The notes under the pieces are model-generated. The model did no database searches and had not been told where the DNA came from. It saw only the letters and a program-made list of their open reading frames with translations. Below, one piece after another: positions 1,343 through 47,871 of a stretch of 47,918 nucleotides of DNA (positions are counted from its first letter, which is position 1; the number at the start of each line of letters is the position of its first letter). The stretch is from an uncultured Erysipelotrichaceae bacterium (GTDB taxonomy: Bacteria > Bacillota_I > Bacilli_A > RFN20 > CAG-826): assembly GCA_902791935.1 (NCBI GenBank), contig CADAXQ010000010.1:1-47918 (forward strand). The letters run 5' to 3'. A program made the position numbers and the translations under genes.

Positions 1343-2533
1343 ATGAGGCTTTCATCAATTTTGCAGAAAAAAGATCGGGCGCAAGCCATTTTGGACGACG
1401 CCGTTGCCCATCAAGAAATGGCGGGCGTAGCTTGTTCGATTCTTTTGCACGGCGAAACCGTTTTTTCTTTGTCTTCGGGCTATGCAAATCTAGAAGAGAA
1501 GCGGCCCGTAAAAAGAGACGATATCTATCACCTCTTCTCAATGACAAAACCGATTACGGCGTTAGCGGCCCTTCTTCTAATACAAGATGGTCGTCTATCG
1601 CTTACCGATCCCATCGAACGTTATTTACCGACGTTTGCACATCCACGGGTGGAAACGAAAGATGGCATCGTCCCCTCTCCTCGCTCCGTTACGGTCCAAG
1701 ACCTATTAAATATGGCGGGTGGCCTTTGCTACAGCTGGGGAGAATCCCAAAACGCGCAAAACGTCATTGCCTTATATAAAGAGATGTCTGAACGTCGTCG
1801 CAATGGTGATAAACCAATGACAACCGTGGAGTTTGCTTCTCGCGTTGGGCAAGCGCCTTTGGCTTATGCCCCAGGCACTTCTTGGGCATATAGCGTCTCC
1901 GCCGATGTCCTTGGCGCCGTTATTGAAGTCGCAAGTGGTCAATCGTTTGGCTCATTCTTAAAACAACGTATTTTCACGCCGCTTGGCATGGATGAAACGG
2001 GTTTCTTCGTTCCTACTGAAAAACGGTTCCGACTGACGCAACCTTATTTCACTAAAGATGGTGATTTGGTGCCGTTTCGCGAGGAATCTCTTGGTATCGC
2101 GCCAAATGGAGAAGCCACTGGTTTTGAATCGGGTGGCGCTGGTCTATATTCCACGCTTCCGAACATGGAACGCTTAGCACAGTGTCTCTTACGCGGTGGC
2201 AAAGATCCGCAAGGCAATTCCGTCTTTCAAGAAGATACCTTGCGATTCTTCTTTGCCGTGCAACCGATGCAATCCTCCGTTTATCAAGCTTTCCATCATG
2301 ATTGCCCAGGTATTCCTATGGGATGCCACTACTCTAACTTTTTGCGTGTCATGGCAAAGCCACAAACCCCGGACGATATTCCGGGCGAATGCTATTGCGA
2401 TGGCTGGCAAGGCGCTTATCTCTCCGTCTTCACGAAAGATGATCTGGCGATCGTTGCCTTAATGGGCCAATGTGGGCATGGCACGGGGCCGGTGAATTTG
2501 AAGTTAAAGAAATTGATTTTCGGCTCGCATTAA
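1343..2533 (+). CDS. Serine hydrolase, beta-lactamase / D-aminopeptidase fold (class C-like)
   Basis: This 396-residue cytosolic-looking serine hydrolase of the beta-lactamase class C family (Pfam Beta-lactamase, EstB/penicillin-binding-like) has no signal peptide. The S-x-x-K motif is HLFSMTKPITALA (catalytic Ser and Lys near residues 65-68), and the Tyr motif is YSVSADVLG, equivalent to Y-x-N/S. A C-terminal GHGTG at about residues 384-388 plays the part of the KTG-type motif. Substrate is unknown: esterase, D-amino-acid peptidase or allantoin-type roles occur in this family. I chose 1343 because family N-termini start about here. An in-frame ATG at 1307 has no Shine-Dalgarno site and would lie upstream of the TATAAT at 1331. 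The last 4 bases overlap the stop of the convergent membrane protein gene, so no terminator separates the two. Confidence 0.85.
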   Translation: MRLSSILQKKDRAQAILDDAVAHQEMAGVACSILLHGETVFSLSSGYANLEEKRPVKRDDIYHLFSMTKPITALAALLLIQDGRLSLTDPIERYLPTFAHPRVETKDGIVPSPRSVTVQDLLNMAGGLCYSWGESQNAQNVIALYKEMSERRRNGDKPMTTVEFASRVGQAPLAYAPGTSWAYSVSADVLGAVIEVASGQSFGSFLKQRIFTPLGMDETGFFVPTEKRFRLTQPYFTKDGDLVPFREESLGIAPNGEATGFESGGAGLYSTLPNMERLAQCLLRGGKDPQGNSVFQEDTLRFFFAVQPMQSSVYQAFHHDCPGIPMGCHYSNFLRVMAKPQTPDDIPGECYCDGWQGAYLSVFTKDDLAIVALMGQCGHGTGPVNLKLKKLIFGSH

Positions 2534-42953: not shown

Positions 42954-43030
42954 GCGCCCGTAGCTCAGATGGATAGAGCACTTCCCTCCTAAGGAAGGGG
43001 TCAGGCGTTCGAATCGCCTCGGGTGCACCA
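42954..43030 (+). tRNA. tRNA-Arg (anticodon CCT)
   Basis: A complete 77-nt tRNA with encoded CCA. GCGCCCG pairs with CGGGTGC. The anticodon arm CTTCC-CTCCTAA-GGAAG gives CCT (reads AGG). TAGGAT with an upstream TGA at about 8 nt before the gene is its probable extended -10. Its 3' half is repeated in degenerate form at 45100-45143. Confidence 0.95.
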
Positions 43031-43306
43031 AAAATCAAAGATAGTCCCGTTATTTTCAGAAAAACTTGATATTGCTAGACAAAGTTTCCAAAACTCATGC
43101 CATTGTCAGATTATTTGCTTCTAGTCTTTTTTAAATTCAATCGCTTCTTGGCACGGACGCTTGCTCGTCTATCGGATCAGAACCCCTTCCCGCCAATGCC
43201 CGCCCGACAATCAATACTACACAAGAACCATGAGCATATTCATGGGCTGCTCCGCCGCGAAAATTCTCTGGTAAAAAGTTAGAATGAAACAATCGAACGT
43301 AATTAA

Positions 43307-43325
43307 AAATTACAGTCTACGTTGT
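43307..43325 (+). repeat. Direct repeat, left copy, flanking the insertion sequence
   Basis: A 19-nt direct repeat (AAATTACAGTCTACGTTGT) that recurs exactly at 43834-43852. The two copies lie immediately outside the insertion-sequence ends and look like a long target-site duplication. Confidence 0.75.
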
Positions 43326-43833
43326 GTTGTTATCAGGTTATTTGTTTCCGTCGTTTTATCAGGTTAATCGTTCCACCCTGCATCCCCCTAGGGGGATCGG
43401 CTTATCAGGTTAATTGTTTCCGTTTAATTCTCCCCTATGGGAAGATGTGGGCGGAGGAATAGACCATGAATGGACTCAATGATTCTTACGTTGCATCGAT
43501 TATCCGGAAGGCGGTGGAGGGGAAGCTTACCACCGGTCAGGCCGCGGCCAAACTCGGCGTGACAAGGCAAAAGATACCAGCTGGTGAACGAAAAGGGAGC
43601 GGTGGCAAAAATTCCTCCAAAGACGGTCGTGGACATCTACGTCACCAGGTCCGGGAAGCGGGTTGCCGCATTCGACGGGGATCTCTGGAGCCTGGTCGAA
43701 ACCGAGAAGAGACAGACGGAAGCGATGCCGAAAAGGCTGGGGCGTCCCAAATACGTTCCGGGCCCTCAGCACCCGTGGAGAAAGTTCGTGATCAAGAACA
43801 AATAGAGGTGGAAACAAATAACCTGATAATGAC
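43326..43833 (+). mobile_element. Deleted insertion sequence (508 bp)
   Basis: TTATCAGGTTATTTGTTTCC at 43330-43349 is exactly inverted at 43829-43810, giving 20-bp terminal inverted repeats. Two further copies of TTATCAGGTTAA-type sequence follow at the left end (about 43356 and 43402), flanking a perfect 16-bp palindrome (ATCCCCCTAGGGGGAT, 43382-43397). The interior carries a broken transposase with its middle deleted. The long flanking repeats (19 bp) resemble IS1202/ISNCY-type duplications, but that family name is a guess. Confidence 0.75.
43466..43805 (+). pseudogene. Transposase, internally deleted
   Basis: The start is a helix-turn-helix DNA-binding head (MNGLNDSYVASIIRKAVEGK, LTTGQAAAKLGVTRQ) like those of ISNCY/IS481-type transposases. 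After a frame change near 43570 it continues as the family's C-terminal tail (VDIYVTRSGKRVAAFDGD, YVPGPQHPWRKFVIKNK). The DDE catalytic core between them is absent, so the element cannot move by itself. A GGAGG lies upstream of the ATG. Confidence 0.8.
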
Positions 43834-43852
43834 AAATTACAGTCTACGTTGT
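43834..43852 (+). repeat. Direct repeat, right copy
   Basis: Exact second copy of the 19-nt repeat found at 43307-43325. Its last bases overlap the -35 of the promoter that follows, so the pre-insertion site was already upstream of this promoter. Confidence 0.75.
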
Positions 43853-43884
43853 TGACATTCGGCGGCCTAACGTTAAAATATAAT
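43852..43884 (+). promoter_or_regulatory. Promoter of the Abi RNA/gene locus
   Basis: TTGACA (43852-43857) is followed after 16 nt by TAAAAT (43874-43879) and after 21 nt by TATAAT (43879-43884). The first pair has near-ideal spacing. Transcription is predicted to start at about 43886-43891. Confidence 0.65.
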
Positions 43885-43886
43885 CA

Positions 43887-43943
43887 ACAGTTCTCTCCAC
43901 GCCTCTTTGCTTAGCAAATGCGCACCACGGAGAGACTTTTTTT
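43887..43943 (+). ncRNA. Structured small RNA upstream of the Abi HEPN gene (putative RNA antitoxin)
   Basis: Between the promoter and the HEPN gene lies a self-contained transcript of about 55 nt. The outer stem pairs 43890-43898 (GTTCTCTCC, with one bulged T) with 43929-43936 (GGAGAGAC). Inside, CGC/GCG pairs and a TTTGC-TTA-GCAAA hairpin are nested. Seven T residues follow at 43937-43943, which makes it an intrinsic terminator as well. Recent work, recalled from memory, links AbiF-type HEPN proteins to small upstream RNAs that act as antitoxins and to the ancestry of Cas13. The layout fits this model; function is inferred. It could also be a simple attenuator. Confidence 0.6.
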
Positions 43944-43963
43944 ATGACATAAGGGAAATGCTG

Positions 43964-44884
43964 ATGATTATTGATGACGGAAAGCGGTTGAACGTCAAGC
44001 CGGCGACAACTCACAAACAACAATTAAGTATCTTGAAATCGAGAGGACTTATTGTTGAAAACGAGGACGCGGCGCTCAAAGTTCTGGAATGTACTAATTA
44101 TTACCGGCTGCGCGGATATTATATTCATTTGCAGAAAGAGAATTCTGATGATTTTAAAGATGGAGTGACATTTGAGCAAATTGTGGCGTTACATGATTTT
44201 GATAATGAGCTCAGAAGTCTGTTGCTCCGTATTCTTCTTGATATAGAAGTTGTTACAAGAACCAGAATGGCTTATGCGCTCGCACATGCATGGGGGCCAA
44301 TGGGATATCGTAACGAAGAAAATTACAATGGTGCAGACCATGACAAATTTGATTTTCTGATGGCACGTATCGATGACGATCTCAGTAAATCCCACGAACG
44401 TTTTATCAAAACCTATAATCAAAAATATCAGGGGCAGTTCCCGATATGGGTTGCTGTTGAAGTGATGTCGTTTGGCGATTTATCGAAATTATATAATCTT
44501 TTGCCAACGACGCAGAAAAAGAAAATAGCAGATGCCTACGATGAACTGGATAAAACACTGCTCACAAACTGGATTCAATGCTGTGTAGTACTACGCAATC
44601 TATGCGCGCACAATAGTAGGATCTATGCTCGAAACATCCCTATTCCGATTAAGATAGAACGCAAGATGCAATCGCGTATCGCTATTGCAACCAATGGCGC
44701 TTTTAAAGCAAGACCACAAACACTTTTTTCCTATTTACTCGCCATTCGACGTATTTCTAATGCAAAAGCGTGGAATTCCTTCTGTAGTGATTTAGTGTCA
44801 TTGCTGGAAAAATACAGTAATGTTGTTGAACTCGTATGTCTCGGAATGCCGGATCAATGGGAACAGTTCATAAATAAAAAATGA
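43964..44884 (+). CDS. Abi family protein (AbiD/AbiF-like, Abi_2), HEPN fold
   Basis: This 306-residue protein matches Abi_2 (AbiD/AbiF) abortive-infection proteins: KPATTHKQQLSILKSRGLI, then NYYRLRGYYIHLQ and FEQIVALHDFDNELRSLLL, and IWVAVEVMSFGDLSKLYNLL. Two HEPN-type R-x4-6-H motifs are visible, R101-MAYALA-H108 and R211-NLCA-H216, the expected RNase pair. It is likely a toxic RNase that limits phage spread when released from control. ATG 43964 is 7 nt after AAGGGA; ATG 43958 is an alternative too close to it. A terminator-like structured RNA lies directly upstream, so expression depends on read-through or a second start. It sits in an island at a tRNA gene. Confidence 0.9.
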   Translation: MIIDDGKRLNVKPATTHKQQLSILKSRGLIVENEDAALKVLECTNYYRLRGYYIHLQKENSDDFKDGVTFEQIVALHDFDNELRSLLLRILLDIEVVTRTRMAYALAHAWGPMGYRNEENYNGADHDKFDFLMARIDDDLSKSHERFIKTYNQKYQGQFPIWVAVEVMSFGDLSKLYNLLPTTQKKKIADAYDELDKTLLTNWIQCCVVLRNLCAHNSRIYARNIPIPIKIERKMQSRIAIATNGAFKARPQTLFSYLLAIRRISNAKAWNSFCSDLVSLLEKYSNVVELVCLGMPDQWEQFINKK

Positions 44885-45099: not shown

Positions 45100-45143
45100 C
45101 TCCCAAGGAAAGGATCTGCGTTCGAATTGCCTCGGGCGCACCA
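45100..45143 (+). repeat. Degenerate 3' half of tRNA-Arg (att-like)
   Basis: The segment aligns with positions 42986-43030 of tRNA-Arg(CCT) from the anticodon loop to CCA: CTCCCAAGGAA, then GCGTTCGAATTGCCTCGGG and CGCACCA, with about 8 differences and one gap. It lacks the 5' half, so it is not a functional tRNA. It looks like the right attachment copy of an element that integrated into the tRNA 3' end. Confidence 0.72.
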
Positions 45144-45199
45144 ATCTTTTGTGTTGATTCCCTATCAAGGTTGTAATGACACGAAATTGCGGGAATTCA

Positions 45200-45499: not shown

Positions 45500-46885
45500 C
45501 TAATCCTTCTTGTAAAGATCTTTTAAAGTATAGAAATGATAGGGATATTCCTTCTTTAAATCATATCCACTCTTAGAGAAAAAGCCGGCATAAGACAAGG
45601 GCAAAGGATCTTCCGAAGCTTCCTTTTCTTCTTTTCCAATATCAGCATCGGAGAGAGGACGAGAAAGATACTTTACTTCGTAGGCAACATAGCCATTAGA
45701 CGTCAAAGCAGCGACATCAAACTGACCGTTCTTTTTGGCTTTTTTGTCGTCATACCAATAGGTGCCAATTCTGAAAAGCGGCGGATTCAGTCTTCCTTTT
45801 TTGTTCTCCTTCGTCAGGTATTGTCGGCAAATGTCTTCAAAGACCTTAGGGACAAGCTGTGTCTGAAAGTCTTCCTGGATGAAAAGATCGTAGAAAGCCT
45901 GCTTCCCGAGGACTTGTCTTTCCATCGCATGGGGATAAAGATAGCGATAATAGAAACGCATGGTCGGATCTTTGATGCGATAACCCGATTTCTTTTTATT
46001 GTTTGGTTCGTTAATCGGAACGATCGATTCTACCAAATCCATTTTCTGTAAGGTGCGGAGAACGTCGGAAAGAATCGCCGAATCTGGAATATGAGAAAAT
46101 GAGAGAATGTCAGAGAAATGATAGGCCCCTTTTGCAATCGCATCGAAAGCCGCGTTAGCGTTGCTGATTTTACTTAATTCGGTACGAAGATGGTTTTCGG
46201 TTTCTTCCGCAAGGTGCGAAAGAGGAGAAGAAAGGAGAAGAATAATATTTTCCTCGACGTTTTTTCCCTTCTGAATCTGTTCGAGATAATAAGGGACGCC
46301 CCCGAAAGCCGCATAGAGTGCCACTTTCTCTTCTTCCGTTCTTTCTGGGAAGAACAAAGAAGCCTCGTAATAATCTAGCTCTGGCAAGAGAAGAGAGAGC
46401 TGAAAACGCCGATAGAGAGGATTGCTCTCACTTTGGATATACTCCATTTGGCGGATACTGCTTCCACAAAGAACAAGTTTCAGATTACTTTCCCGTTTAT
46501 AGGTGTCAATCAATCTTTGTAACTGGGAATCAATGCCAGAAATGGCTCGACGAAGCGAGGAATATTCGTCTAAAACGAGATAGATCTCTTCTTGTTCCGC
46601 CTGGCGAAAAACAAATTCCAAAGCATCTGTAAAAGAAGGAAAAGAAAGATTTCCCAGCGAAAAAGTCTTGGCAATAAGCTTCGAAAAAGAAAGCGTATTA
46701 TTTGCTTCATTATCGACAAGCCCCGTGAAGAAAAGAAGCTTTTGCGGATGTTTTGAAAGAACATGCCAAAGAAGCTCGGTCTTTCCTAAACGTCTTCTTC
46801 CATAAAGGATGATTCCCTGATATCCCGGATGGGAGAGAACCTCTTCAATCGCCTGCATCTGTTCTTCGCGTCCAATAAATGCCAT
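45500..46885 (-). CDS. AAA-type ATPase, archaeal ATPase/DUF234 family
   Basis: This 461-residue protein matches the archaeal-type ATPase family. The Walker A is ILYGRRRLGKTELL near residues 26-39, the Walker B region is EIYLVLDEYSSLRR at about 99-112, and a sensor motif is LVLCGSSIRQME. The middle carries a winged-helix part (FSDILSFSHIPDSAILSDVLRTLQKMDLV). The C-terminal DUF234 region contains GQFDVAALTSNGYVAYEVKYL, which resembles a PD-(D/E)XK nuclease core (D and ExK). Function is unknown; such proteins are common in mobile and defence contexts. GGAGGA lies 6 nt before the ATG. It lies outside the island but next to the XRE/metallopeptidase pair. Confidence 0.88.
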   Translation of the reverse strand: MAFIGREEQMQAIEEVLSHPGYQGIILYGRRRLGKTELLWHVLSKHPQKLLFFTGLVDNEANNTLSFSKLIAKTFSLGNLSFPSFTDALEFVFRQAEQEEIYLVLDEYSSLRRAISGIDSQLQRLIDTYKRESNLKLVLCGSSIRQMEYIQSESNPLYRRFQLSLLLPELDYYEASLFFPERTEEEKVALYAAFGGVPYYLEQIQKGKNVEENIILLLSSPLSHLAEETENHLRTELSKISNANAAFDAIAKGAYHFSDILSFSHIPDSAILSDVLRTLQKMDLVESIVPINEPNNKKKSGYRIKDPTMRFYYRYLYPHAMERQVLGKQAFYDLFIQEDFQTQLVPKVFEDICRQYLTKENKKGRLNPPLFRIGTYWYDDKKAKKNGQFDVAALTSNGYVAYEVKYLSRPLSDADIGKEEKEASEDPLPLSYAGFFSKSGYDLKKEYPYHFYTLKDLYKKD

Positions 46886-47061: not shown

Positions 47062-47086
47062 TTTGATGGAAAGAGGGGGAAAAACG

Positions 47087-47446
47087 ATGCAATATACAAA
47101 ATTCGGGGAAGAATTCCGCATTCTAAGAATCAAACATCATGAAGTGTTGTCGGATGCTGCCAAATTTCTAAGCGTTTCCAGTTCTTTTGTTTCTGCGGTA
47201 GAAACGGGGAAAAAGAACGTTCCGGATAAATGGCTCGACATGATTTGCTGTCATTATTCATTAAATGAAGAGCAACGTAAAAAGCTGTCTCAGGCTATCG
47301 AGGAATCTAAAACCACCGTTAAGATTGATATGGTCACGGCTACCGAAGCCCAACGGAATGTAGCGCTTCAATTTCAAAGATCTTTTGATGATTTAGACGA
47401 ACAAACCGCTGCTGAAATCATGAAAATTCTAAAGAGGAATAATTAG
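47087..47446 (+). CDS. XRE family helix-turn-helix regulator
   Basis: This 119-residue protein has an HTH_XRE domain at residues about 5-60: FGEEFRILRIKHHEVLSDAAKFLSVSSSFVSAVETGKK, with the VSSSFVSAVETGKK recognition helix. The C-terminal half is helical (ATEAQRNVALQFQRSF, then LDEQTAAEIMKILKRN). It is expected to repress its own promoter at the palindrome at 47040-47054. The start at 47087 follows GAGGGGG by about 7 nt; an in-frame ATG at 47066 is less likely. It is followed 2 nt later by the metallopeptidase gene, so the two form an operon. Confidence 0.87.
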   Translation: MQYTKFGEEFRILRIKHHEVLSDAAKFLSVSSSFVSAVETGKKNVPDKWLDMICCHYSLNEEQRKKLSQAIEESKTTVKIDMVTATEAQRNVALQFQRSFDDLDEQTAAEIMKILKRNN

Positions 47447-47448
47447 AA

Positions 47449-47871
47449 ATGGATTACATGACAAAGCCTATAAGCCGTTCCGATCTACGAGTTATCGCGA
47501 AAGCGTTCAGAGCCCGGTTTGGCTGCAAAAACAAATTGCGTTTTAATGTAATTAATGCCTATGAACGTTTTCCTTCTCTGTTTCCTAATGTTGTAACTCA
47601 AATTATTGATGACGATGATGATTCCTGTATGCCATCTAATATTCCCTCTTCTTGTACCCTATCATCTGATGGAACACTCGAGATTAGAATTAGACAAAAA
47701 GTATATGATGGGGCGTGCGATGGAGTAGGTGGCTATCGTGCGCACATCCTTCACGAAATGTGTCATGCAATCTTAATAATGATGGGTTTCAGCCCAATTA
47801 TGGGTAGAGCTTTTAAAAATAAAAACTCTATAGTGCACGTGAGGGATAAATCAGCATCAGGATTGGTATAA
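47449..47871 (+). CDS. HExxH metallopeptidase of ImmA/IrrE type
   Basis: This 140-residue protein has a zincin motif HILHEMCHAIL (HExxH) near residues 104-108. In ImmA/IrrE proteins, HEXXH peptidases paired with an XRE repressor cleave or release that repressor. The adjacent XRE gene and operon arrangement fit this. The N-terminus is a basic helical region (DLRVIAKAFRARFGCKNKLRFNV), then an acidic IDDDDDSC segment. The C-terminal part after HExxH is short (about 30 residues), shorter than many relatives, so a third zinc ligand is not obvious. AGAGGA lies about 11 nt before the ATG. A terminator follows. Confidence 0.75.
   Translation: MDYMTKPISRSDLRVIAKAFRARFGCKNKLRFNVINAYERFPSLFPNVVTQIIDDDDDSCMPSNIPSSCTLSSDGTLEIRIRQKVYDGACDGVGGYRAHILHEMCHAILIMMGFSPIMGRAFKNKNSIVHVRDKSASGLV

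Follow-up and report, generated by a model that had tools for sequence, protein, structure and literature searches.

The 47,918-nt stretch of DNA analyzed here, referred to as the window, very probably encodes a toxin-antitoxin/abortive-infection module of the AbiF type, controlled by RNA and carried on a small island linked to tRNA-Arg. The published AbiF/abiF-RNA system thereby gains a copy that had not been listed before, and no new kind of system is involved. The homology of the RNA and the toxin, the conserved order of the parts, the covarying structure, the intact catalytic motif, and the fold were computed here. With this locus, a Bacilli genome contributes a further lineage of the system, from which Cas13 is reported to descend. 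The new pieces are small and of modest weight: an apical helix of the RNA (P3), a map of RNA classes across the tree of toxins, and, on another contig (C7) of the same genome, an orphan abiF RNA.

Organization of the locus

The module is composed of a promoter, a small folded RNA, and a gene for a HEPN toxin (Table 1). As the first-pass annotation had proposed, a TTGACA/TAAAAT promoter is present at 43852-43879 and agrees with the promoter consensus at 11 of 12 positions, though promoter-like strings per se show no excess over chance (3 found versus 4.8 expected). In the sister locus L057, the promoter is TTGACA/TATTAT, and its spacing to the RNA is equal to that in the window. From the position of the promoter, transcription would start at ~43886. 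A folded transcript ending in a hairpin and seven T residues had also been described, and this is borne out for an RNA of ~58 nt. The RNA folds at -14.9 kcal/mol, and 0 of 200 dinucleotide shuffles fold as well (z -3.2). P1 and the U tract would together form an intrinsic terminator. The terminator scan of the window did not list this hairpin because the scan permits loops of 3-8 nt only.

The mechanical open reading frame of the Abi gene starts at 43907 and overlaps the RNA. The likely start is ATG 43964, which is preceded by AAGGGA and gives a protein of 306 aa. A pairing of U7 with AAGGGA that would hide the ribosome site was considered and rejected; it occurs in one fold only, whose stability does not exceed that of shuffles (z -0.17).

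Table 1. Features of the AbiF module and its island in the window
Feature	Position	Strand	Details and basis
tRNA-Arg(CCT) gene	42954-43030		Left island border
Left att-like repeat	43005-43031	+	3' end of tRNA-Arg(CCT); 2.1-kb island
Promoter	43852-43879	+	-35 TTGACA 43852-43857, 16-nt spacer, -10 TAAAAT 43874-43879
abiF-type small RNA, ~58 nt	43886-43943	+	Predicted antitoxin and terminator leader; CM R1; RF03085 below cut-off
P1, 5' strand UCUCUCC	43892-43898	+	Partner GGAGAGA 43929-43935; 2 double compensatory changes versus L057; covariation in A2, A3
abiF RNA motif core	43893-43935	+	Rfam RF03085
Conserved purine bulge, A here	43899	+	A or G in 93/93 non-redundant loci
P2, 5' strand CGC	43900-43902	+	Partner GCG 43920-43922; class CGC; comparison of loci
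Conserved CUCU	43903-43906	+	In 72/93 loci
Apical helix P3, variable	43907-43917	+	UUGC 43907-43910 / GCAA 43914-43917, loop UUA; inner hairpin of the first-pass annotation
3' single-stranded bulge CACCAC	43923-43928	+	Conserved NACCAN; CCA in 77/93 loci
U7 tract	43937-43943	+	T run of at least 4 here in 84/93 loci
Ribosome site AAGGGA	43951-43956	+	Ahead of ATG 43964
AbiF/AbiD-type HEPN toxin gene	43964-44884	+	306 aa, Abi_2; Pfam, PADLOC, motif, predicted fold
Right att-like repeat	45118-45144	+	27-nt copy of tRNA-Arg 3' end, no tRNA gene; 2.1-kb island

The abiF RNA and its relatives

At curated thresholds, Rfam reports nothing at the window RNA. At relaxed thresholds, 43893-43935 matches RF03085, the abiF RNA, with 26.2 bits, below the gathering score of 37. 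The first-pass annotation had raised the question of whether the RNA family has been described; it is already in Rfam, and PMC12373285 cites Weinberg et al. 2017 for its description. The window RNA has P1, the purine bulge, P2, the CUCU loop, and the 3' single-stranded bulge in common with RF03085, and an Abi_2 gene is adjacent. The two differ at the apex, which is an unpaired 11-nt loop in the Rfam model and a hairpin in the window. The sister RNA of L057 scores 44.2 bits, above the Rfam cut-off.

Relatives of the protein were gathered from genomes, plasmids, phages, and viral contigs. A covariance model, CM R1, was built from 24 relatives having a plain 11-nt loop, with the window excluded. 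Searched against the 47.9-kb window, CM R1 matches 43893-43944 with 51.2 bits (E=2.1e-12), and this is its top match across the whole genome. The first-pass reading depended on a conserved structure with compensatory changes upstream of related Abi genes, and both are present. More than 90 related loci, counted without redundancy, have the RNA upstream of an Abi_2 gene, at a median of 36 nt from the tblastn match of the toxin, and every helix shows compensatory changes among them. In alignment A3 (79 matches), 98.1% of the pair cells are standard pairs, and 9 of 10 pairs have changed on both sides. The A3 covariation score is 0.44, compared to 0.16 when shuffled and at most 0.08 in slid versions, in an alignment that is model-fitted and biased towards the model. 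The rows of alignment A2 were picked for P1 and P2 pairing, so the 100% pairing of these helices is partly by construction. The P1 test was repeated on 59 distinct motifs whose rows were chosen by a sequence-only anchor that ignores P1. In these motifs, a mean of 5.73 of 6 P1 pairs form versus 4.83 with swapped partners, where the maximum of 200 swaps is 5.02.

A fast search of 395 genomes of the class with RF03085 found no match, and the controls were equally without one; this search lacks power, and absence of the RNA is not implied. A single-sequence search of genome contigs and viral contigs gave no match, the relatives having come with alignment A1, and none was found when plasmids were searched with the locus at the DNA level.

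The order upstream of the relatives is a P1 helix of ~6 bp, a bulged purine, a 3-bp P2, CUCU, the apex, AU, P2', a 6-nt single strand that is mostly NACCAN, P1', and a T run. The parts of the RNA that are conserved across these sequences comprise the purine bulge and P2, CUCU and AU, and the single-stranded (N)ACCA on the 3' side. The terminator-like P1 and U7, along with the widespread T run, would also suit an RNA that is a transcription attenuator only, a leader terminator of the Abi gene in cis with no action on the protein. A plain terminator, however, would not retain the purine bulge, CUCU, and unpaired ACCA across varying P1 contexts. Moreover, the Clostridioides difficile homologue neutralizes in trans and co-purifies with its toxin (PMC12373285), and we regard an attenuator alone as improbable.

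The apical helix P3 and the toxin tree

The inner hairpin, TTTGC-TTA-GCAAA, had been put forward as the likely recognition part of the RNA. It turns out to be the most variable element. The closest relative, L057 from a Lachnospiraceae metagenome-assembled genome, encodes a toxin that is 64% identical to that of the window, and its RNA differs from the window RNA by 2 compensated P1 pairs, a few unpaired bases, and an apex of CAACG in place of UUGCUUAGCAA. Hairpin and plain apices have interchanged 13 times on a tree of 93 toxins. Because the inner hairpin is absent in L057 and is often interchanged, it is unlikely to be the recognition part; recognition more plausibly lies in the conserved unpaired ACCA and in CUCU/AU.

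In all 59 sequence-anchored motifs, which were chosen without regard to this pairing, the two end bases of the apex pair with each other. The closing pairs are UA (25), CG (23), GU (6), GC (4), and AU (1). Among 20 longer apices, the mean helix is 3.15 bp, compared to 0.72 bp in shuffles. The closing pair and these helix lengths indicate that the apex forms a helix, P3, whose length varies and which Rfam draws open. Of 18 hairpin-apex forms, 0 reach the Rfam cut-off, compared to 7 of 18 with a plain apex. Because hairpin-apex forms escape the public RNA model, the system is under-counted.

The class of P2 (CGC, CAC, or AGC) changes 6 times on the tree of 93 toxins versus 32.6 times when shuffled, though plain joint descent predicts this co-inheritance of RNA class and toxin clade likewise, and it is no independent proof of binding. 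The map of RNA and toxin classes over ~90 loci is a ready set for matching antitoxin RNAs to toxins. Among more distant Abi_2 loci, the RNA is found in only 2 of 37; therefore, the model does not match everywhere, and the RNA is tied to one Abi_2 clade. In the genus, an Abi_2 gene is present in only 2 of 37 genomes. The toxin of the other member, L007, is 34% identical and has its own abiF RNA, which points to separate acquisitions.

Several loci depart from the common arrangement. L088, L091, L118, L113, L115, L122, and others have an apex without CUCU (TTAATGTAGA.., ATAAGGCGGAAACGCACT); they form their own toxin clade with a distinct RNA subclass. In L009, abiF motifs at 2384-2429 and 1412-1457 (both on the minus strand) flank the toxin gene on both sides. 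L141 carries tandem abiF motifs at 1363-1407 and 1425-1466 before its toxin gene, as in the C. difficile RNA RCd22.

The HEPN protein

The toxin is an AbiF/AbiD-like protein, as first annotated. It matches Pfam Abi_2 (PF07751) with 182.3 bits over a cut-off of 25.6, and PADLOC AbiD with 291 bits. Of the two R-x4-6-H motifs that had been noted, both strings exist, but only one is an invariant HEPN motif. This is RNLCAH, an R-polar-x3-H motif with R211 and H216 (numbered from ATG 43964), in which the R, N, C, A, and H of RNxCAH are invariant across 32 sequences (alignment A4). The histidine of the second string, RMAYALAH, is variable. R211/H216 aligns with the catalytic R210/H215 of PbAbiF.

The predicted structure of the window protein (pLDDT 95) has the same fold as PbAbiF in 8VZ6, with a Z score of 26.3 and an rmsd of 2.2 over 285 residues at 27% identity, and the same catalytic R and H. 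8VZ6 is a PbAbiF dimer bound to its ncRNA (Zilberzwige-Tal et al. 2025, as cited in PMC12373285). Each monomer holds one ncRNA, which is compatible with the single-motif RNA of the window.

The next fold matches are Cas13d structures with Z scores of ~8 (best 8.4), a value that alone is weak evidence. The first-pass annotation had stated that AbiF-type HEPN proteins are tied to small RNA antitoxins and to the origin of Cas13, and both are published: the former for RCd22/AbiFCd (PMC12373285), and the descent of Cas13 from AbiF-like proteins as reported in PMC12373285 and PMC12737573. CRISPR-Cas13 (type VI) is likewise a HEPN nuclease, but it has two HEPN domains per chain and an array, whereas the window protein has one motif in 306 aa and neither array nor guide. 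The reported ancestry and the Cas13d match would fit a Cas13-like role of the RNA as a guide that takes the HEPN protein to its target. No CRISPR array or CRISPR-like array was found in the window, however. The variable part of the RNA is a self-paired hairpin and no open guide, and the RNA stops at the U tract directly after P1, hence there is no spacer. An RNA-guided nuclease is thus extremely improbable.

Known systems and the proposed mechanism

The best-studied counterpart is the C. difficile AbiF/RCd22 pair of the phi027 prophage, for which the toxicity of the toxin has been shown by experiment (PMC12373285). RCd22 ends by premature termination ahead of the toxin gene, with read-through, and it neutralizes AbiFCd both in cis and in trans. 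Neutralization depends on a paired stem and not on the stem sequence; the RCd22 mutants assayed altered both of its abiF motifs. RCd22 binds AbiFCd directly and co-purifies with it, and mutation of R202/H207 in AbiFCd abolishes toxicity (all PMC12373285).

The window shares with this system the order of promoter, abiF RNA, terminator, and Abi_2 gene, a homologous motif and toxin, the RNxCAH motif, and one promoter for RNA and toxin. The relative L036, in phage phiCDKH02, scores 37.6 bits in Rfam. The differences are several. In RCd22, the abiF motif is present twice and the terminator is separate, whereas the window has one motif and the U tract is carried by P1 itself; no second abiF motif was found near the toxin gene within the window. 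The T run after P1 in most loci of the set makes the C. difficile layout the exception. The RNA class is AGC/CAAAUA in RCd22 and CGC/CACCAC in the window, the C. difficile module is located in a prophage lysis module rather than a tRNA-Arg island, and the toxins are ~36% identical.

In PbAbiF-AbiFr, too, the toxin is bound by its RNA, which acts as the antitoxin, as reported in PMC12737573. According to the same review, PbAbiF is inhibited by single-stranded bulge nucleotides of its RNA. This bulge would correspond to the ACCA of the window, and by analogy the 3' bulge CACCAC is likely the toxin-inhibiting part.

The classical type III toxin-antitoxin systems (ToxIN, AbiQ, CptIN, and TenpIN) also have an RNA antitoxin, a terminator between RNA and toxin, and direct inhibition of the protein by RNA, and their working may be similar. 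Their toxin fold is unrelated, and their antitoxin RNAs are tandem repeats, in contrast to the single unit of the window.

Since the order and parts of the window match the C. difficile system, the same mechanism is the best reading by analogy. One promoter would drive the RNA. Most transcripts would end at the P1-plus-U7 terminator, leaving the 58-nt abiF RNA in excess, and rare read-through would produce the toxin mRNA. The free RNA would bind the HEPN dimer with its conserved single-stranded bulge, ACCA, at the active site (RNxCAH); bound in this way, it would block general cutting of single-strand RNA. A shortage of RNA, for instance upon loss of the island or a phage-imposed stop of host transcription, would free the toxin, and growth would stop. 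In this scheme, RNA-protein binding, neutralization, terminator read-through, and RNase toxicity are carried over from the published homologues; the trigger, the role of the ACCA bulge, and the activity of the window copy are presumptive. The earlier proposal of an RNA-controlled HEPN toxin-antitoxin, with the RNA as both terminator and partner, agrees with the experiments on the homologous RCd22/AbiFCd and PbAbiF-AbiFr loci and would extend to the window RNA, which is homologous by covariance model. Counted against this reading are the single motif compared to two in the C. difficile RNA, the Rfam score below the gathering score, and the insertion sequence (IS) remnant upstream of the -35 element.

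Genomic context

The IS remnant immediately precedes the -35 element. It is a shortened IS at 43300-43852, with 25-nt inverted ends and a target duplication of at least 18 nt (43300-43325 and 43827-43852). The duplication ends where TTGACA begins, and the abiF promoter is therefore preserved. A fuller copy of the IS is found on contig C2 (L227:1215-2570) and encodes a 451-aa HTH transposase-like ORF. No integrase was recognized in the 2.1-kb island between the att-like repeats.

The same genome has an orphan abiF RNA on contig C7 (G000:C7:66195-66248; L226:2696-2749), with 30.7 bits and E=6e-5. A T6 run follows it, and no Abi_2 gene accompanies it; the genome has one Abi_2 gene. The orphan is either a relic of toxin loss or a trans-acting antitoxin. 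The abutting IS remnant, the island with no recognized integrase, and an orphan RNA suggesting that such loci decay would together suit a fossil module, one whose island has decayed and from which toxin or RNA is no longer made in active form. However, the reading frame is uninterrupted for 306 aa and keeps all invariant residues; the promoter, the RNA pairing, and the U tract are intact; and the P1 differences from L057 are compensatory, implying selection since the split. A fossil is accordingly hardly probable. An AbiF module that is disturbed by the IS remnant, yet whole in promoter, RNA, and ORF, is the preferred reading.

A broader proposal, which we put forward tentatively and think rather unlikely, is that abiF antitoxin RNAs carry a third helix of variable length, P3, that is absent from the Rfam consensus and turns over fast, whereas the P2/bulge class follows the toxin clade, and that orphan abiF RNAs such as that on C7 may be trans-acting anti-addiction RNAs that counter AbiF toxins on their arrival.

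Downstream of the island, an ATPase_2/DUF234 protein is encoded at 45500-46885 on the minus strand. It is followed on the plus strand by an HTH regulator (47063-47446) and a small HExxH (HEMCH) protein (47449-47871), which resemble an HTH and ImmA/IrrE-type pair.
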